Origin: Salinivirgaceae bacterium
GTDB lineage: Bacteria; Bacteroidota; Bacteroidia; Bacteroidales; SZUA-534
Direction of reading: 5' to 3'
Assembly (NCBI GenBank): GCA_030620515.1
Contig: JAUXEM010000005.1
Location: forward strand, 1-50,822
Length of the DNA: 50,822 nucleotides
Within the stretch, counting starts at the first letter, position 1; the number at the start of each line of letters is the position of its first letter. Shown piece after piece: positions 10,121 through 25,601 of this stretch. Below the pieces are notes generated by a model that made no database searches, was not told the origin of the DNA, and saw only the letters and a list, made by a program, of their open reading frames with translations. The position numbers were made by a program, and so were the translations under genes.

Positions 10121-11746
10121 ATGAATGAAAATTTTGGATTTTGGGATTACCTTATCTTTGCACTTTATGCAATAGTTATATTATCGGTAGGCTTATTCGT
10201 GTCACGAAATAAAAAAGGGCAAGAAAAAACAGCTGAGGATTATTTTTTAGCAGGTAAAACACTACCATGGTGGGCAATAGGTGCATCGCTGATTGCAGCC
10301 AATATTTCTGCCGAGCAATTTATTGGTATGTCAGGCTCCGGATTTAAAGTGGGTTTAGCAATTGCCTCATACGAGTGGATGGCAGCAATTACATTAATAA
10401 TTGTTGCAAAGTATTTCTTGCCAATCTTTATAAAGCAAGGCTTATATACAATTCCCGAATTTGTAGAGAAACGTTTTAATACTTCATTAAAAACCATACT
10501 TGCCGTATTTTGGATAGCTTTATTTGTTTTTGTAAACCTTACATCGGTATTATATTTAGGAGGTAAAGCTTTAGATACTATTTTAGGAATTGGCGATGGT
10601 GCAAGTATTGTACCATTCATGATTGGTTTAGCTTTATTTGCTGCTGCTTATTCTGTATGGGGAGGCTTATCAGCTGTAGCTTGGACTGACGTAATTCAAG
10701 TAGTACTTTTAGTAATTGGTGGCTTAGTAACAACTATAATTGCTTTAAACCATATTACACCTGATGGTAATGCTTTTAATGGTATGGCTCATGTTTATGA
10801 TGTTGCAGCCGAAAAATTTCATATGATTCTTAAAAAGGATAATCCTGAATTTAGCAATTTACCAGGTATAGCTGTATTAGTTGGTGGTATGTGGGTTGCT
10901 AATTTATATTACTGGGGTTTTAATCAATACATTATTCAACGTGCATTAGCAGCTAAATCACTAAAAGAGGCTCAACGTGGTATTGCATTTGCCGGATTCT
11001 TAAAAATTATTATTCCTTTAATAGTAGTAGTACCTGGAATTATTGTTTATGTAATGTATCAGGAGAATATAGCTGAAGCTGGTAGTATGTTTTCAGATGC
11101 TGTTGGTGCCAATAACGATCATGCTTACCCTTGGCTAATTGGCAAATTTGTCCCAACAGGGTTAAAAGGACTTGTAGTAGCAGCACTTTCTGCAGCTATT
11201 GTGTCGTCGTTAGCATCTATGCTAAATTCAACTTCTACTATTTTCACTATGGATATTTACAAACCTTATATTAATAAAAGTGCTGGCGATAAACAATTAG
11301 TTAAAACAGGTAGAATTACAGTGCTAGTTGCGTTGGCTATTGCTACAGCCTTAGCAAATTCAATGGGTTCTATACCTCAAATGTTTCAATATATACAAGA
11401 ATATACAGGAGTTGTAAGTCCTGGTATTTTAGCTGTATTCTTAATGGGCCTTTTTTGGAAAAAAACAAATGTAAAAGGAGCAATTATTGGCGTTCTTTCT
11501 TCAATACCAATTGCTTTAGCATTGAAATTCCTTCCTATCGAAATGCCTTTCTTAGATCAAATGTTGTATACTCTTCTAATTACTATGGTTGTTATTGTGG
11601 GTGTATCATTAAATACTGGAAAGGGCGACGATGATCCTAAAGCCATTCCTTTATTACCAGAAACTTTTGCAACAGGCAGTAAATTCAATATTAGTGCTTA
11701 TATTATGTTAATAATACTTGTAATACTTTATACAGTATTCTGGTAA
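10121..11746 (+). CDS. Sodium/sugar (galactose) cotransporter, vSGLT-like SSS family
   Basis: 541 aa; strong resemblance to Vibrio SGLT (IASYEWMAAITLIIVAKYFLPIFI, WVANLYYWGFNQYIIQR, FQYIQEYTGVVSPGILAVFLMGLFWKKT); located in the gal locus. Confidence 0.93.
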   Translation: MNENFGFWDYLIFALYAIVILSVGLFVSRNKKGQEKTAEDYFLAGKTLPWWAIGASLIAANISAEQFIGMSGSGFKVGLAIASYEWMAAITLIIVAKYFLPIFIKQGLYTIPEFVEKRFNTSLKTILAVFWIALFVFVNLTSVLYLGGKALDTILGIGDGASIVPFMIGLALFAAAYSVWGGLSAVAWTDVIQVVLLVIGGLVTTIIALNHITPDGNAFNGMAHVYDVAAEKFHMILKKDNPEFSNLPGIAVLVGGMWVANLYYWGFNQYIIQRALAAKSLKEAQRGIAFAGFLKIIIPLIVVVPGIIVYVMYQENIAEAGSMFSDAVGANNDHAYPWLIGKFVPTGLKGLVVAALSAAIVSSLASMLNSTSTIFTMDIYKPYINKSAGDKQLVKTGRITVLVALAIATALANSMGSIPQMFQYIQEYTGVVSPGILAVFLMGLFWKKTNVKGAIIGVLSSIPIALALKFLPIEMPFLDQMLYTLLITMVVIVGVSLNTGKGDDDPKAIPLLPETFATGSKFNISAYIMLIILVILYTVFW

Positions 11747-16722: not shown

Positions 16723-16860
16723 GGGTCGCGAGGCATTTTGCCTCGTTTTTTCATTCAAATGGAAGCTGAATACCCTTTAATTATATGAAAGGATTTGGCT
16801 AGAAGCCGAATGACCCCATGCCAGATGATATGATTATTTGGCTATAAGCCGAATGACCCT
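16723..16860 (+). repeat. Second cluster of GGGTCR/ATTCGGCT...AGCCGAATGACCC hairpin repeats; first hairpin resembles an intrinsic terminator
   Basis: GGGTCGCGAGGCATTTTGCCTCGTTTTTT (16723-16751); GATTTGGCTAGAAGCCGAATGACCCC (16792-16816); ATTTGGCTATAAGCCGAATGACCC (16836-16859). Confidence 0.78.
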
Positions 16861-17185
16861 AGAGTTAGCTGTGTGATAAAATTATTTAATGGGTGAGTGT
16901 GGCAGTCTGTTGATGGGCACACGCCTGTGAGTTGTAATAGTAATGCTATGGTAGGGGTTTGCTAAACTGAAAGGGATTGCTTCGCTGCACTACAATTGAC
17001 ATAAATTGGCTAAGGTTAGGTTGCGATATGAAATATATAATACTGAATATGTATTAAATAGTATCATATTACTGCTGCATAATGTTATATTTTAAGAATT
17101 GCTGAAATTTTAGTGTGTTTTATTTTTTTTTGTAAAATATATCAATCATATTTGTATTGAATTAAACAAAACATATTTTAGACAG

Positions 17186-17269
17186 ATGACAACATTTTTT
17201 GGACATACCTCTTTTTATTATTGCTATTTTTATTTCTGGAGAGATAAGGCGAGGTTTATATGTGCATGA
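17186..17269 (+). CDS. Aromatic-residue-rich leader peptide (27 aa: MTTFFGHTSFYYCYFYFWRDKARFICA)
   Basis: ATG..TGA ORF; 11/27 residues Phe/Tyr/Trp, including FYYCYFYFW; directly upstream of antiterminator/terminator and pheA. Not in supplied ORF track because of length. Confidence 0.82.
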   Translation: MTTFFGHTSFYYCYFYFWRDKARFICA

Positions 17270-17319
17270 AAAATGTATTTAAAAATATAAAACCTCGCTA
17301 TTAAGCGGGGTTTTTTTTT
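17249..17319 (+). promoter_or_regulatory. Transcription attenuator: antiterminator 17249-17260:17286-17298 vs terminator 17291-17299:17304-17312 + T-tract
   Basis: GCGAGGTTTATA pairs with TATAAAACCTCGC (12 bp, one bulged A); AACCTCGCT-ATTA-AGCGGGGTT + TTTTTTT intrinsic terminator shares 17291-17298 with the antiterminator. Confidence 0.85.
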
Positions 17320-17332
17320 ACCCTAATGTGAA

Positions 17333-18205
17333 ATGACAGAAACTAAAACAATACTTAAAAAAGCCGCTATACAAGGTAGTTACGGAGCATTCCATGAAAT
17401 AGCTACTCGCAATTACTTTGCAAACAATATAGATGTTGTGCCTTGTGAAACCTTCGATAATATTATTGAAATACTTGAAAATAAGGACGTTGATTATGGT
17501 ATGATGGCTATTGAGAATACCGTAGCTGGTAGTATCATACCTAATTATCTACTTTTGCGAGAGTCGGCTGTGAAAATAGTTGGGGAAGTGTATCTTAGAA
17601 TTAAACAGAACTTGGTGGCATTGCCTGGTCAAAAAATTGATGATTTAGTTGAGGTACATTCACATTACATGGCAATTGAGCAAACACGTAAATTCTTTAA
17701 ACAGTACCCAAACATTAAGCTTGTAGAATCGAGTGATACCGCTTTAAGTGCTCGCAAAATTCAAGATAAGAAACTAGTCGGGAAAGGAGCAATATCCTCA
17801 GATTTAGCTGCTGAAATGTATAATTTAGAGATACTAGCTCCGGGTATAGAAACAAACAAACGAAACTATACCCGTTTTTTAATTCTCACACACAAAGATT
17901 CAAAAGACAATTGCAAAGAGAATTGTACCAAAGCATCACTTTGTTTTAGCTTGCCTCACCACAAAGGAAGCCTTTCCCAAGTATTAAGCGTTTTGGCTTT
18001 TTACGATTTAAATCTTACTAAAATACAGTCGATGCCTATTATTGGTAAAGAGTTTAAATATTTCTTTTATGTTGACCTTTCCTTTACCGATTATGAGAGA
18101 TATCAGCAAAGTATTACAGCTATAAAACCTTTACTGGTCGATTTTCAGATACTAGGAGAATACAACAAAGCAAAAGAATCATTAGACACCATACATAATC
18201 AATAA
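17333..18205 (+). CDS. pheA: Prephenate dehydratase with C-terminal ACT domain
   Basis: 290 aa; AIQGSYGAFHEIA, MAIENTVAGSI, NYTRFLIL; ACT domain ASLCFSLPHHKGSLSQVLSVLAFYDLNLTKIQSMP. Confidence 0.93.
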   Translation: MTETKTILKKAAIQGSYGAFHEIATRNYFANNIDVVPCETFDNIIEILENKDVDYGMMAIENTVAGSIIPNYLLLRESAVKIVGEVYLRIKQNLVALPGQKIDDLVEVHSHYMAIEQTRKFFKQYPNIKLVESSDTALSARKIQDKKLVGKGAISSDLAAEMYNLEILAPGIETNKRNYTRFLILTHKDSKDNCKENCTKASLCFSLPHHKGSLSQVLSVLAFYDLNLTKIQSMPIIGKEFKYFFYVDLSFTDYERYQQSITAIKPLLVDFQILGEYNKAKESLDTIHNQ

Positions 18206-18207
18206 TT

Positions 18208-19374
18208 ATGATTAAACCAGCATTAAGAACCACTTTGGTTAACGAATACTATTTTTCGCAAAAGCTTAAACAAATTGAGCAAATGAATAATAGTGGCAGC
18301 AGGGTTATAAATTTAGGGATTGGTAATCCAGATCAGCAACCACCTGCTAATGCAATTTCAGAGTTACAGAAGCAAGTAAAAGAACCCAATACAAATGGTT
18401 ATCAGAGTTATAAAGGCATTAGTGAATTACGAAATGCCTATGCAGATTGGTATAAAAACTTTTATAATGTTGAGCTTAATGCTGAATCTGATATATTGCC
18501 ACTTATAGGTTCTAAAGAAGGTATAATGCACATTAGTATGGCTTACTTAAATCCTGGTGATAGGGTGTTAGTGCCAAATCCTGGTTACCCCACATACTCT
18601 TCAGTATCTAAAATTGTAGGAGCCGAAATAGTTGAATATAATTTAAAAGAAGAAAACAACTGGTTGCCCAATTTTAACGAATTAGAGAAACTTGCAGCAG
18701 ATAATATAAAACTTATGTGGGTAAATTACCCTAATATGCCAACTGGAAAGGCTGCTACATTAGAGCTATATAAACAATTGGTTGATTTTGGTAGAAAGCA
18801 CAATATTCTAATCTGCAACGATAATCCTTATAGTTTTATTCTTAACGATAATCCTATTAGCATGTTGGCTGTAGATGGAGCTAATGAGGTTTGTTTAGAG
18901 TTAAACTCTTTAAGTAAATCGCATAATATGGCTGGCTTTAGAGTAGGTATGGTTGCAGGTAATCAAGAGTTTATCCAGAATATTCTGAAAATAAAAAGCA
19001 ATATGGATTCTGGCATGTATAAGCCTGTTCAAATGGCTGCTGTTAAGGCTCTTGAAAATTCAATGGAATGGTATAATTCAATTAATCGCATTTACAAAAA
19101 ACGTCGCGAGTTGGTTTGGAATTTATTCGATTTACTTGGAGCTGAATACGATAAAAGTCAAGTAGGCATGTTTGTTTGGGCAAAAATCCCCAAAGAATAT
19201 GAAAATGCTATTGAGTTTTCCGATTTTTTCCTAGAAAAAACAAGGGTATTTCTAACCCCAGGAACAATTTTCGGTTCCAATGGAAATAAATTTGCTAGAA
19301 TTTCTCTCTGTAGTTCAGAGGAAACTATAAATCAAGCCATTGAAAGAATAAAAATTGTTTTAAAAACAGCATAA
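18208..19374 (+). CDS. PLP-dependent aminotransferase class I/II (likely aromatic aminotransferase)
   Basis: 388 aa; INLGIGNPDQQPP, PNPGYPTYSS, NYPNMPTGKAA, SLSKSHNMAGFRVG; 2 nt after pheA. Confidence 0.9.
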   Translation: MIKPALRTTLVNEYYFSQKLKQIEQMNNSGSRVINLGIGNPDQQPPANAISELQKQVKEPNTNGYQSYKGISELRNAYADWYKNFYNVELNAESDILPLIGSKEGIMHISMAYLNPGDRVLVPNPGYPTYSSVSKIVGAEIVEYNLKEENNWLPNFNELEKLAADNIKLMWVNYPNMPTGKAATLELYKQLVDFGRKHNILICNDNPYSFILNDNPISMLAVDGANEVCLELNSLSKSHNMAGFRVGMVAGNQEFIQNILKIKSNMDSGMYKPVQMAAVKALENSMEWYNSINRIYKKRRELVWNLFDLLGAEYDKSQVGMFVWAKIPKEYENAIEFSDFFLEKTRVFLTPGTIFGSNGNKFARISLCSSEETINQAIERIKIVLKTA

Positions 19375-19386
19375 TAAAAGAATAAA

Positions 19387-20226
19387 ATGAATTTAACAAT
19401 TATAGGACTAGGTTTAATAGGTGGTTCAATGGCTATTGATCTTAGAAAAAGAGAGTTTGTTGACCATATTATTGGCGTAGATAATAATAAAATTAATGCC
19501 AATGCAGCTTTAAGTATTGGTTTGGTCGATGAGCTTTGTAAATTGGAAGAAGCAGTTAAAAAAGCCGATGTAATAATTATTGCTACACCTGTTGATGGAG
19601 CAAAAAAAACCTTACCAAAGGTATTAGATATGATTGATAATCAGATTGTAACTGATACTTGCTCTACAAAAGCTGGCATACATGAGTTAGTAAAATATCA
19701 TCCTAAACGAAAGCAATATGTAGCTGGTCACCCAATGGCTGGTACAGAACATTCTGGACCTTGGGCAGCAATATCTGGACTTTTCGATGGAAAAGCTACA
19801 ATATTATGCGATACCGAAGAAAGTGATATTAGAGCCGTTGCTCAAGTTCGTAGAATTTACGACACCTTGAATATGCGAGTAGTATTTATGAACAGTAGTA
19901 GTCACGATGTACATGCTGCCTATGTTTCACATATCTCACACCTAAGTTCTTTTGCTTTGGCTTTAACAGTATTAGAGAAAGAAAAAAACGAAAAGCATAT
20001 ATTTGACTTAGCTAGTGGTGGATTCGATTCATCGGTTCGTTTAGCTAAAAGTTCAGCAGATATGTGGACACCTATTTTTGAACAAAACAAAGAGAATATA
20101 CTTACTGTTTTAGATACTTATATTGATAAACTAAACTGTTTCAGAAAGCATATTGAATCCGATGAATCGGAAAAAGTATCTGATTTAATTAAAAAATCGA
20201 ATAAAATTAAAAGAGTTTTACAATAA
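19387..20226 (+). CDS. tyrA: Prephenate dehydrogenase
   Basis: 279 aa; LTIIGLGLIGGSMAIDLRK, GHPMAGTEHSGP, SHISHLSSFALA. Confidence 0.92.
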   Translation: MNLTIIGLGLIGGSMAIDLRKREFVDHIIGVDNNKINANAALSIGLVDELCKLEEAVKKADVIIIATPVDGAKKTLPKVLDMIDNQIVTDTCSTKAGIHELVKYHPKRKQYVAGHPMAGTEHSGPWAAISGLFDGKATILCDTEESDIRAVAQVRRIYDTLNMRVVFMNSSSHDVHAAYVSHISHLSSFALALTVLEKEKNEKHIFDLASGGFDSSVRLAKSSADMWTPIFEQNKENILTVLDTYIDKLNCFRKHIESDESEKVSDLIKKSNKIKRVLQ

Positions 20227-20242
20227 ATAAGCTATTACTACT

Positions 20243-21331
20243 ATGAATTCAATCTTAAAAAAACCATTCGAGGGCTGGAATCTGGAAAAAGCAGAACGTC
20301 CTTTAATTATCGCTGGCCCTTGTAGTGCCGAATCTGAAGAGCAAATAATGACAACTGCACGACAGTTGAAAAACATGAACGTAAGTCTTTTTAGGGCAGG
20401 TATATGGAAACCTCGTACTCGTCCTAATTCTTTTGAAGGAGTAGGTTCTATTGGTTTAGAGTGGCTAAAAACTGTTCAGAAAGAACTGAACATGAAAGTT
20501 GCGACCGAAGTTGCCAATGTAAAACACGTTTATGAAGCATTGCGTTATGGTGTAGATGTAATTTGGATAGGAGCCCGTACTTCGGCAAATCCTTTTGCCA
20601 TGCAAGAAATTGCCGATGCCTTAAAAGGAGTTGACCTACCAGTATTTATTAAAAACCCGGTAAATCCTGATGTGGAGCTTTGGATAGGAGCAATTGAACG
20701 AATTATGGGAGCAGGTATATCTAAAGTGGGAGCAATACACCGTGGATTCTCTACTTTTGATAAAACCAGATATCGTAACACGCCGCAATGGCAATTGCCA
20801 ATTGAGCTACGTCAGAAAATGCCTCATATACCAATGATATGCGACCCTAGTCATATTGCAGGACGTAGAGATATACTTCAAGAAATATCGCAAAAAGCAC
20901 TCGACCTTAATTTCGATGGCTTAATTATTGAAACGCATTGCAACCCCGATAAAGCCTGGAGCGATGCTAAACAGCAAATTACGCCAGTTGAATTGGATAA
21001 ATTAATAGCTAAGCTGGTACTTCGTCATCGAGTATCGGATAATAACTCTTTTATTGAGACTTTAGAAGATTTAAGGGTACAGATTGATAAGTATGACGAT
21101 GAACTTCTAAATATAATAGAAGAACGAATGAAAATTGCCGAGACCATTGGTAAATTCAAGAAAGAGAATAATATTACTATTCTGCAACCTGACAGATGGC
21201 AAGAGATTCTGAATAAAACCCTTCAAAAAGGAGAAAATAGAGAACTTAGTATTGACTTTATTAATACGCTATTTAAGGCAATTCACCAGGAATCAATTAA
21301 TAAGCAAACTAAAATTATGAACGACGATTAA
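20243..21331 (+). CDS. Bifunctional DAHP synthase / chorismate mutase (AroG-like + type II CM)
   Basis: 362 aa; IAGPCSAESEEQ, RAGIWKPRTRPNSFEG, CDPSHIAGRRD; C-terminal CM (LEDLRVQIDKYDDELLNIIEERMKIAETIGKFKKENNI). Confidence 0.93.
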   Translation: MNSILKKPFEGWNLEKAERPLIIAGPCSAESEEQIMTTARQLKNMNVSLFRAGIWKPRTRPNSFEGVGSIGLEWLKTVQKELNMKVATEVANVKHVYEALRYGVDVIWIGARTSANPFAMQEIADALKGVDLPVFIKNPVNPDVELWIGAIERIMGAGISKVGAIHRGFSTFDKTRYRNTPQWQLPIELRQKMPHIPMICDPSHIAGRRDILQEISQKALDLNFDGLIIETHCNPDKAWSDAKQQITPVELDKLIAKLVLRHRVSDNNSFIETLEDLRVQIDKYDDELLNIIEERMKIAETIGKFKKENNITILQPDRWQEILNKTLQKGENRELSIDFINTLFKAIHQESINKQTKIMNDD

Positions 21332-21458: not shown

Positions 21459-22478
21459 ATGCAGCAATTAGGCATTAAGGGTTCTGTTTCCGATTCCCTA
21501 CTATTGGTTGGCGAAGATTTTAAACAATATAAGAAATACCTTCCCAATAAACAGATTATTGTTATTATCGACAATAAGGTAAATAAACTATATGGAGAGT
21601 ATTTTTCCGATTACCAGATAATTGAAATTGGACAAACAGAAAATATAAAAAATATAGACAGCGTTTCATCAATTTTGGAACAATTACTAAGCTACAAAGC
21701 TGACCGCAGCACCTTTGTTTTAGCCGTTGGTGGTGGTATTGTTTGCGATATTGCTGGTTTTGTTGCTTCAATATATTTACGAGGAATTGATTTTGCTTTT
21801 ATTTCTACCACCTTACTATCGCAGGTTGATGCCAGTGTTGGTGGTAAGAATGGGGTTAATTTTCTGGGTTTCAAAAATATGCTTGGTGTTTTTAATCAAC
21901 CAAAATTTGTAATATGCGACCCTAAAATGCTAGAAACACTTGACGTAGAGGATTTAAACTGTGGTTTTGCCGAAATAGTAAAGCATACTTTAGTTGCCGA
22001 TGCTAATATGTTTTCTTATTTGGAGAACAATTCAAGCAAAGCATTAAGCTTAGATAGCCAAGTAATTGAAAAACTTGTATTTAACTCTGTTAATATTAAA
22101 GCTGATATTGTTAATAGAGATGAAAAAGAAAAAGGAGAACGCCGGAAATTAAATCTTGGACATACCTTTGGACATGCAGTTGAAAAAACACTAAAACTTG
22201 CCCATGGTAATGCTGTTAGTATTGGCTTGGTAGTAGCTGCTAAGCTCTCCTTAAATAGGGGATTGTTATCTGAAAAGGATTATAATAGGATTATTACCTT
22301 ATTAAAAGCTTTGGATTTACCCGTTAGTATTGATTCGGATAAAGAAGCTATTATATCTGCCTTAGATATGGACAAAAAGCGTGAAGGAAATGCTATTCAC
22401 TTTGTTCTTATGGAAGGAATTGGCAAGGTTCGCATTGAAGAAATATCTTTAGACGAATTGAAAGCTGTAGAACTTTAA
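21459..22478 (+). CDS. aroB: 3-dehydroquinate synthase
   Basis: 339 aa; VLAVGGGIVCDIAGFVASIYLRGIDF, STTLLSQVDASVGGKNGVN, LNLGHTFGHAVE. Confidence 0.95.
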   Translation: MQQLGIKGSVSDSLLLVGEDFKQYKKYLPNKQIIVIIDNKVNKLYGEYFSDYQIIEIGQTENIKNIDSVSSILEQLLSYKADRSTFVLAVGGGIVCDIAGFVASIYLRGIDFAFISTTLLSQVDASVGGKNGVNFLGFKNMLGVFNQPKFVICDPKMLETLDVEDLNCGFAEIVKHTLVADANMFSYLENNSSKALSLDSQVIEKLVFNSVNIKADIVNRDEKEKGERRKLNLGHTFGHAVEKTLKLAHGNAVSIGLVVAAKLSLNRGLLSEKDYNRIITLLKALDLPVSIDSDKEAIISALDMDKKREGNAIHFVLMEGIGKVRIEEISLDELKAVEL

Positions 22479-22622: not shown

Positions 22623-23252
22623 ATGCTATGTAGAGCTATTGCTGAAAAAGGTCTTGAGAATATACTAAAGAGTATTGAAGGAGCTGAAATGGCTGAGATT
22701 CGTATCGAAGAAACTGGATTAACTGCAAATGAGGTTTCTAAACTATTCTCTAGTCACCATAATTTATTAGCTACTTGTCGTCCCGTTGGTAAGAGTGATT
22801 CAGATCGTTTAGTTTTATTAAAAGCTGCCATTGACGCTGGCGCAAAATGGGTTGACATTGAAATAGAATCGGAGCAATCATATACCAATGAACTGGTACC
22901 TTATGCCAAATTAAAAAACTGTAAAGTAATAATATCTTATCATAATTACGACTTAACACCTGACACTGACAAGTTGAACGGCATTGTGGAAGATGCATTA
23001 AAACAAGGAGCTGATATAGTTAAGCTTGCTTGCAAAGTTAATAACCCAACAGATAATGCTAGGTTGGTAGCCTTATATACCAATAAGATACCTATAGTGT
23101 CTTTAGGTATGGGAGAATTAGGAATGATTACTCGCATAGCAGCATTAAAAATGGGAGCACCCTTTACTTTTGTTAGGGGAAATAATATTAGAGAAACAGC
23201 TCCTGGTCAATTAAGTGAGAATGAAATTAATGATATTTTAAAGTATTTATAA
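22623..23252 (+). CDS. aroD: Type I 3-dehydroquinate dehydratase
   Basis: 209 aa; MAEIRIEE, WVDIEIES, VIISYHNYD, DIVKLACKVNN, GAPFTFVRG. Confidence 0.9.
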   Translation: MLCRAIAEKGLENILKSIEGAEMAEIRIEETGLTANEVSKLFSSHHNLLATCRPVGKSDSDRLVLLKAAIDAGAKWVDIEIESEQSYTNELVPYAKLKNCKVIISYHNYDLTPDTDKLNGIVEDALKQGADIVKLACKVNNPTDNARLVALYTNKIPIVSLGMGELGMITRIAALKMGAPFTFVRGNNIRETAPGQLSENEINDILKYL

Positions 23253-23281: not shown

Positions 23282-24535
23282 ATGATTAAAGAAATATTTC
23301 CATCATCAATAAACGGAGAAGTACTTGCTCCGGCATCAAAAAGTTTTATGCAACGTGCTATCGCCTTGGCAGTAATGACCAATAGTAGCACAAAAATACT
23401 TAATCCTAGTTATTGCGACGATGCAAAGGCAGGCCTCAATATAGCTCGCAATTTTGGTTATACAGTAACTGAAAATAAAGACTCAGTGCTTATTGAAAAG
23501 GGCAACTTTACTTTTCCCAATGAGATATTTTGTGGTGAATCAGGTTTAGCCATAAGGCTTTTTGCGCCTATTGCAGCTTTGGCAAACAAACCAGTAAGGT
23601 TAGTTGCCGAGGGCTCCTTATTGAATAGACCTGCAGAATTCATGGAAAGTACCTTTAAGCAACTTGGTATTGAATTTGAAACAAGCAATGGTTTTCCGCC
23701 AATAATGGTGCAAGGACCATTTTCTAGCCAATTTGCCGAAGTAAATGGCTCTATTAGCTCACAGTTTCTTTCAGGCTTATTAATTGCTCTGCCAAAAAGC
23801 AATTTATCTACTACGCTAAAAGTGAATCAGTTAATGAGTGTACCTTATGTTGAAATGACTTTAGCTGCTATTAAATCATTTGGAGGTAAGATTGAGCACA
23901 ACAGCGATTATTCGGAATTTACAATTGAAGGAAATCAGGAATACAAGGCTGGTGAATATTTTATTGAGGGCGATTGGAGTGGAGCTGCTGGATTACTTGT
24001 GGCAGGAGCAATAGGTGGTGAAATTACAGTAAATAGATTAAGTACTAATTCAACACAAGCTGATATGGCTATTTTAAAGGCTATTGAGCAAACGGGTGCT
24101 TTAATTGAGAAAACTGCTAATTCTGTGAAAATCACTAAACCCAAAGTATTGAAACCTTTTGTTTTCGATGCACTTCATTGTCCCGATTTATTTCCGGTTT
24201 TAACCGCATTGGCTGCAAATTGCGATGGTATATCTCAGATTAATGGAGTACACAGACTTACTCATAAAGAGAGTGATAGGGGGCTTGTGTTAAAGCAAGA
24301 GTTTAATAAAATTGGAATACATATTGAGTTTGAACAAGATGAAATGATTATACATGGTGGAAGCATTCAAGGAGCAGAAGTATTTGCTCACAACGACCAT
24401 CGTATTGCTATGGCATTAACTTTGGCAGCTTTAAATTCTGAAAATAAAATAACAATAACAGGAGCAGAGAGCGTAAACAAAACTTACACAGAGTTTTATA
24501 ACGATATACAATCATTAGGCGTGAAAGTTAATTAA
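23282..24535 (+). CDS. aroA: 3-phosphoshikimate 1-carboxyvinyltransferase (EPSP synthase)
   Basis: 417 aa; APASKSFMQRAIALA, GESGLAIRLFAPIAAL, SSQFLSGLLIALP, DHRIAMALTLAAL. Confidence 0.94.
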   Translation: MIKEIFPSSINGEVLAPASKSFMQRAIALAVMTNSSTKILNPSYCDDAKAGLNIARNFGYTVTENKDSVLIEKGNFTFPNEIFCGESGLAIRLFAPIAALANKPVRLVAEGSLLNRPAEFMESTFKQLGIEFETSNGFPPIMVQGPFSSQFAEVNGSISSQFLSGLLIALPKSNLSTTLKVNQLMSVPYVEMTLAAIKSFGGKIEHNSDYSEFTIEGNQEYKAGEYFIEGDWSGAAGLLVAGAIGGEITVNRLSTNSTQADMAILKAIEQTGALIEKTANSVKITKPKVLKPFVFDALHCPDLFPVLTALAANCDGISQINGVHRLTHKESDRGLVLKQEFNKIGIHIEFEQDEMIIHGGSIQGAEVFAHNDHRIAMALTLAALNSENKITITGAESVNKTYTEFYNDIQSLGVKVN

Positions 24536-24608: not shown

Positions 24609-25601
24609 ATGAATTCTTTCGGTAGATTATTTAAAACACAAATATTTGGTGAATCACACGGAATGGGTGCCGGTATTGTTATAGATGGCTGTCCGGCAGG
24701 AATACCAATAACAGAAGAAACGTTTGAAGCAGACCTCTCAAGACGGCGTGCTGGTGCAAAAGGAACAACTCCCAGAAAAGAAGCCGACCTACCAGAAATA
24801 ATGAGCGGAGTATTCGAAGGAAAAACAACAGGAGCTCCAATAACAATATTTTTTCGTAACATGAATACTCGCTCAGGCGATTATGCAAATTTAGTGGCAT
24901 CGCCACGCCCTGGGCATGCTGACTATACCGGAAGAGTTAAGTATGGAGGTTTTAATGACTATCGTGGTGGTGGACACTTTTCTGCTCGATTAACTGTTGG
25001 TGTGGTTGCTGCAGGAGTTGTAGCTAAACAAATACTTAAAAATGTTGAAATTACTGCTAAGCTTACCGAGGCTGGTGGATCAACTAATATTGAACATGCT
25101 GTAGAAAAAGCTATGGAAAATCTTAATTCCATTGGTGGTATAGTTGAATGTACGGTGAAAGGCATTCCGGTTGGATTAGGTGAACCTTTTTGGGATTCTG
25201 TAGAATCAGTATTAAGTCATGCTGTATTTGCCATACCTGCAATTAAAGGCATTGAATTTGGTAGCGGTTTTCAAGGCTCCAGAATGACCGGATTAGAAAA
25301 TAATGACAATATTATTGATGCGAATGGTAAAACAGAAACCAACCACGCTGGTGGTATTAATGGTGGTATTACAAATGGTAACGATATTGTATTTAGAATA
25401 GCAGTGAAACCTACATCAAGCATATCTATCGCGCAACAAACAATGAACTTTGAAAAAGGGAAAGTAGATGAACTTGTTATTCAAGGACGACACGATGCTT
25501 GTGTTGCTTTACGTGTTCCTCCAATTTTAGAGGCTATTACTGCCATAACCTTAACCGATTTAATGTTATTGGAGCAGAAAGCTTCACGGGTGTATGAGTA
25601 A
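24609..25601 (+). CDS. aroC: Chorismate synthase
   Basis: 330 aa; FGESHGMGAGIVIDGCPAGI, RRRAGAKGTTPRKE, RPGHADYTGRVKYGGFNDYRGGGHFSARLT, RHDACVALRVPP. Confidence 0.97.
   Translation: MNSFGRLFKTQIFGESHGMGAGIVIDGCPAGIPITEETFEADLSRRRAGAKGTTPRKEADLPEIMSGVFEGKTTGAPITIFFRNMNTRSGDYANLVASPRPGHADYTGRVKYGGFNDYRGGGHFSARLTVGVVAAGVVAKQILKNVEITAKLTEAGGSTNIEHAVEKAMENLNSIGGIVECTVKGIPVGLGEPFWDSVESVLSHAVFAIPAIKGIEFGSGFQGSRMTGLENNDNIIDANGKTETNHAGGINGGITNGNDIVFRIAVKPTSSISIAQQTMNFEKGKVDELVIQGRHDACVALRVPPILEAITAITLTDLMLLEQKASRVYE

Follow-up and report, generated by a model that had tools for sequence, protein, structure and literature searches.

What controls transcription of the eight-gene operon that begins with pheA in this Salinivirgaceae genome, and to which amino acids does that control respond? 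We analysed a window of 50,822 nucleotides (the whole stretch of DNA under study), in which a short ORF rich in aromatic codons and an intrinsic terminator precede pheA. An initial annotation had read this arrangement as ribosome-mediated attenuation. Its coordinates for the ORF, the antiterminator arms and the terminator proved right to the base, and it had correctly placed the sequence in a Bacteroidetes-type genome (the organism belongs to the Bacteroidales). Our results indicate that the locus is very probably a transcription attenuator of the trp/phe type that acts in cis through the translating ribosome, placed before the pheA operon. It comprises the following features.

17129-17132: possible -33 element TTTG, at a short spacing (14 nt) from the -7 box.
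17147..17154, + strand: possible -7 promoter box CATATTTG, consensus TAnnTTTG with one mismatch.
17186..17269, + strand: leader peptide ORF, encoding MTTFFGHTSFYYCYFYFWRDKARFICA and a stop codon; identified from the sequence and from homologous leader ORFs in relatives.
17192..17211, + strand: segment 1 (core ACATACCTC, 17203-17211), pairing with segment 2 in the whole-leader MFE structure and in the swap test.
17213..17239, + strand: aromatic codon run FYYCYFYFW, the regulatory codons; 8 of 9 residues are aromatic in the translation.
17249..17260, + strand: segment 2 GCGAGGTTTATA, the 5' arm of the antiterminator, overlapping the 3' end of the leader ORF.
17286..17298, + strand: segment 3 TATAAAACCTCGC, the 3' arm of the antiterminator, which also serves as the 5' arm of the terminator.
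17289..17319, + strand: intrinsic terminator hairpin (segments 3:4) plus U-run, from folding and covariation.

The translated leader peptide contains six Phe, four Tyr and one Trp, and its stop codon lies at 17267. The terminator, AACCTCGCT/ATTA/AGCGGGGTT, spans 17291-17312; its U-run reaches 17319, and 13 nt separate the end of the U-run from the pheA ATG at 17333. The promoter box of this leader is an inexact copy of TAnnTTTG, a motif found in exact form within 90 nt upstream of 99 of the 142 leader ATGs of the survey described below (9 expected; median distance 22 nt). Further upstream, at 16800-16870, a short direct repeat (AAGCCGAATGACCC) lies between an alpha/beta hydrolase-like gene and the leader. 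On the 3' side of the leader, eight genes follow in this order.

17333..18205, + strand: pheA, prephenate dehydratase (best match and context; below the curated NCBIfam cut-off).
18208..19374, + strand: class I aminotransferase (best matches in the LL-DAP aminotransferase group; below the NCBIfam cut-off).
19387..20226, + strand: tyrA, prephenate dehydrogenase.
20243..21331, + strand: DAHP synthase-chorismate mutase fusion (DAHP synthase below the NCBIfam cut-off).
21459..22478, + strand: aroB, 3-dehydroquinate synthase.
22623..23252, + strand: aroD, type I 3-dehydroquinate dehydratase (below the curated NCBIfam cut-off).
23282..24535, + strand: aroA, EPSP synthase.
24609..25601, + strand: aroC, chorismate synthase.

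Since pheA, the aminotransferase, DAHP synthase and aroD fall under the NCBIfam cut-offs, their names come from best matches plus context. By these gene assignments the products of the operon are Phe, Tyr and chorismate, and the short ORF in front of it carries a run of codons for the operon's own amino acids.

How would such a leader work? In the scheme that we propose, we infer the start site, the sensing of tRNA and the actual termination. RNA polymerase would start about 20-30 nt ahead of the leader ORF. When charged tRNA-Phe or tRNA-Tyr (possibly also tRNA-Trp) is scarce, the translating ribosome would stall in FYYCYFYFW, leaving segment 2 free to pair with segment 3; the terminator would then be blocked and the eight-gene operon transcribed. 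When charged tRNA is ample, the ribosome would reach the stop codon and cover segment 2, segment 3 would pair with segment 4, and transcription would end at the U-run before pheA. With no ribosome in the way, segment 1 could pair with segment 2, and this too should favour termination.

Computationally, we observed the leader ORF, three alternative helices, their covariation, their conservation and a matching codon and footprint geometry. Relative to dinucleotide shuffles, both the antiterminator hairpin (17240-17300, -19.7 kcal/mol, z = -5.85) and the terminator (17275-17320, -15.0 kcal/mol, z = -4.75) are unusually stable, and the folding of the entire leader has z = -4.83. We then swapped arms between the 142 leaders. 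Between segment 2 and the segment 3 of the same leader, the pairing energy averages -16.7 kcal/mol, versus -11.1 kcal/mol with the segment 3 of other leaders (permutation z = -21.5; 0 of 5000 permutations did as well). The same test on segments 1 and 2 gave z = -17.0, again with none of the 5000 permutations doing as well. This 1:2 helix, absent from the initial annotation, is a third alternative helix and completes the trp-type layout.

The alternative helices also covary. In an alignment of 45 sequences (A2), the antiterminator shows 84.6% standard pairs, with changes on both sides in six of eight pairs, and a covariation of 0.302 versus 0.177 when shuffled and 0.140 in the best slid register. 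For the terminator, 93.3% of cells are paired, seven of eight pairs have changed on both sides, and covariation is 0.468 versus 0.236 when shuffled (45 sequences). Both scores lie above every shuffle and every slid register; the shuffles ignore relatedness, and the arm-swap test and slid registers agree with them. Support for covariation takes the form of the swap test and pair counts, in place of a covariance model. As segment 3 is common to both helices, three arms change together, and the mutually exclusive antiterminator and intrinsic terminator are both conserved.

The position of the codon run fits the same picture. Across the family, the end of the aromatic run lies a median of 9 nt from segment 2 (middle half 8-11), and leader stop codons fall within or beside this segment. 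We represented the ribosome by a 30-nt mask and computed equilibrium pairing before the 3' arm of the terminator exists. In this footprint model, antiterminator pairing in the window stays at 0.92 for all ribosome positions up to F17, falls to 0.80 at W18 and 0.42 at R19, and is close to 0 between D20 and the stop. In 115 of 141 leaders the last codon that still permits the antiterminator is 0-2 codons beyond the last aromatic one, and in 122 of the 141 antiterminator pairing drops below 0.25 when the ribosome stands at the stop. As far as the model goes, stalling in the run frees the antiterminator arm and reaching the stop blocks it; a switch based on ribosome stalling would require just such an on/off boundary where the run ends. 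The ribosome-free equilibrium also favours the antiterminator (0.92 in the window), and termination in the absence of translation would hence need the 1:2 helix to form first during transcription.

Is an aromatic run of this kind more than a chance feature? Taken alone it is not: the DNA pattern of F/Y codons has 55 matches in this genome versus 43 for the reversed control, i.e. it occurs at chance level, and we rejected the run as evidence on its own. What raises the leader above chance is conservation together with covariation. The survey covered 193 Bacteroidales pheA loci for which 150 nt or more of upstream sequence was available; in 177 of them (142 non-redundant) an aromatic-run ORF and, after it, an intrinsic terminator lie ahead of pheA. 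Closely related runs differ mostly by T/C at codon position 3 and A/T at codon position 2, differences that are either silent or exchange F for Y. When loci were sampled across the whole phylum, leader and terminator were present in 28 of 30 loci of the class Bacteroidia, mostly by automated calls (L207, L212, L214 and L232 were called by eye). In the two others (L231 and L234) a coding sequence extends right up to pheA and there is no leader. Outside the class, three loci (L202, L227 and L228) have the leader too, and it was not found in the remaining more distant loci that we read. Two automated calls outside the class (L239 and L248) were discarded as spurious, being short F/Y stretches with no plausible terminator nearby, the former inside a coding sequence.

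Five loci (L073, L078, L093, L181 and L197) have a pheA without detected aromatic operon neighbours and without a recognisable leader, which suggests that the element accompanies the operon and not pheA as such. The initial annotation had named conservation as a check of its reading, and the leader ORF and both alternative stems are indeed kept in orthologous loci. Conservation, covariation of both helices, the 1:2 helix and the footprint geometry together give strong support to ribosome-mediated attenuation.

Which amino acids does the leader sense? We are confident that Phe and Tyr form the core of the signal; how much each of them and Trp contributes is something that we infer from here on. 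One reading, for which the chances seem evenly balanced, is that the attenuator responds to Phe and Tyr only and that its Trp codon is neutral or a leftover. Phe (23.6%) and Tyr (16.4%) make up 40% of leader residues versus 1.1% for Trp, which is present in about a fifth of leaders, most of them carrying F and Y only. Moreover, Trp is missing in two close relatives, with Cys in its place in one (G009/L116) and Asn after the run in the other (G002/L118). Yet Trp is also more concentrated in the run than any other residue (24 inside versus 11 outside, 5.9-fold, Fisher p = 1.7e-7), a figure to be read with the knowledge that leaders were chosen by an aromatic-run criterion, which makes statistics of run composition partly circular. 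Trp also reappears elsewhere in the class Bacteroidia (nine leaders, automated call), which counts against a neutral codon as well.

The other reading is that the leader senses all three aromatics, such that a shortage of Trp alone would derepress the whole shikimate/Phe/Tyr operon. We regard it as plausible, if a little short of even. It draws on the same concentration of Trp in the run, on the retention of Trp, within the family of the window leader, in G000, G001, G003, G005 and G007, and on the position of W18, which in the footprint model is the last codon where a stalled ribosome leaves the antiterminator largely intact (0.80). However, the majority of leaders have no Trp, including those of the close relatives just mentioned, and the leader in the window has a single Trp codon, behind which a stalled ribosome would leave segment 1 exposed. 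Trp also has separate leaders of its own, before trpE. The raw counts associate Trp in the run with operons that include aroB/D/A/C (18 of 54, versus 8 of 61 operons without these genes; Fisher p = 0.014), but independent pairs on the tree, on which the comparison involves about 18 changes, show no trend and are too few for significance. We therefore did not retain the link between Trp codons and common-pathway operons, its nominal significance being unsupported by the tree-based test.

The tri-aromatic leader of the initial annotation thus stands in part: Trp is recurrent and non-random in the run, but it is labile, and most leaders have F and Y only. Where present, Trp appears from its placement in the sequence to be part of the aromatic signal. 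A broader proposal is that of a class-wide family whose leaders each combine signals for Phe and Tyr and, in certain lineages (this one among them), also for Trp; Trp codons would have been recruited wherever the common chorismate-pathway genes joined the operon. We put it forward tentatively and consider it rather doubtful; if true, a shortage of any aromatic amino acid would open the whole pathway. A translation-independent device, be it an attenuator controlled by a protein or metabolite or a constitutive terminator of the upstream unit with the U-rich tract incidental, is very improbable, for although the terminator is strong in its own right and the U-rich pattern is frequent in a genome as A+T-rich as this one, such a device would not account for the conserved ORF, the tight 9-nt spacing from run end to segment 2, the covarying and mutually exclusive helices, or a footprint boundary that falls where the run ends.

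How does ribosome-mediated attenuation at this locus relate to known systems? Leader-peptide attenuation of such logic is classical. In trpL (Trp_leader) it has a four-segment layout of 1:2, 2:3 and 3:4 helices, which the leader studied here shares; unlike in trpL, the codons are mainly F/Y and the operon is another. The enterobacterial pheL (Phe_leader) likewise combines a leader peptide with aromatic codons, alternative antiterminator and terminator, and pheA downstream, whereas here the leader has F and Y (and W) and stands before an operon of Phe, Tyr and shikimate genes. Leaders with codons for several amino acids made downstream are found in the ilvGMEDA and thr operons of E. coli. These concern other amino acids in another phylum, and given this precedent, joint control by several amino acids is unsurprising.

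The Rfam scan of the window returned no family above threshold. Leader families were sub-threshold only, with Phe_leader (RF01859) at 28.5 bits (gathering score 55) and Trp_leader (RF00513) at 22.2 bits (gathering score 41). Bacteroid-trp (RF01692) had no match at the gathering threshold in the window and none in this genome. The Phe, Trp and Bacteroidetes leader families that the initial annotation had singled out for comparison are hence all below threshold or unmatched. Bacteroid-trp is also a cis-regulatory RNA motif of Bacteroidetes (PMC2864571), and its name points to trp genes. Closer to our case, the passages on regulatory elements in a 2021 transcriptome of Flavobacterium psychrophilum report a structured 5' element before pheA, conserved in Flavobacteriaceae and with no Rfam hit, as well as strong signs that leader peptides attenuate amino-acid operons (PMC9723704). 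Compared by description, this element probably belongs to the same family as the leader analysed here; those passages describe it without peptide, mechanism or extent beyond Flavobacteriaceae, whereas elements with the layout of the window leader occur widely in the class Bacteroidia. The initial annotation therefore overrated how unusual the locus is. In the open-licence literature, these two papers were all that we found on attenuation or aromatic leaders in Bacteroidetes; we met no description of a class-wide family or of the codon content of the element, and earlier ones may exist.

The mechanism is textbook; this version of it extends over a large class of Bacteroidota without belonging to any named RNA family, which leaves a defined and testable element outside Rfam. 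On this evidence, a major bacterial class whose amino-acid regulation has been little studied would control its central aromatic operon by classical ribosome-mediated attenuation. The leaders form a natural series in which F/Y/W codons and operon content vary and the layout is single or tandem, and which is suited to testing joint sensing of several amino acids.

Tandem pheA leaders, with two aromatic ORFs and a terminator for each, were seen in L007/L120, L203 and L232 (MKRNFEYNYFYFN then MNAGLFAYFYFFFFWVHTGPRSL in L007; MLQTRFFFGYYYFYAAA followed by another F/Y-rich ORF in L232). At L119 (G003:C320, ~10560-10780), leader (FYYFFYLW) and terminator are intact, and the match to pheA is limited to about 50 residues, followed by an aminotransferase fragment, the result of a deletion or an assembly error. 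Lastly, two tandem Trp-rich leader ORFs, MINNCKNIWRWHFNSQTKK and MILNLNITTTKNTAWQWRWQVLYLQW, each with an intrinsic terminator, precede trpE in the genome of the window (G000:C180; L111 and L121). Tandem trpE leaders also occur in G003, G005, G007 and G009 and a single one in G001 and G002 (further trpE loci include L266, L268, L269 and L271); the tandem arrangement could make the response to Trp steeper.
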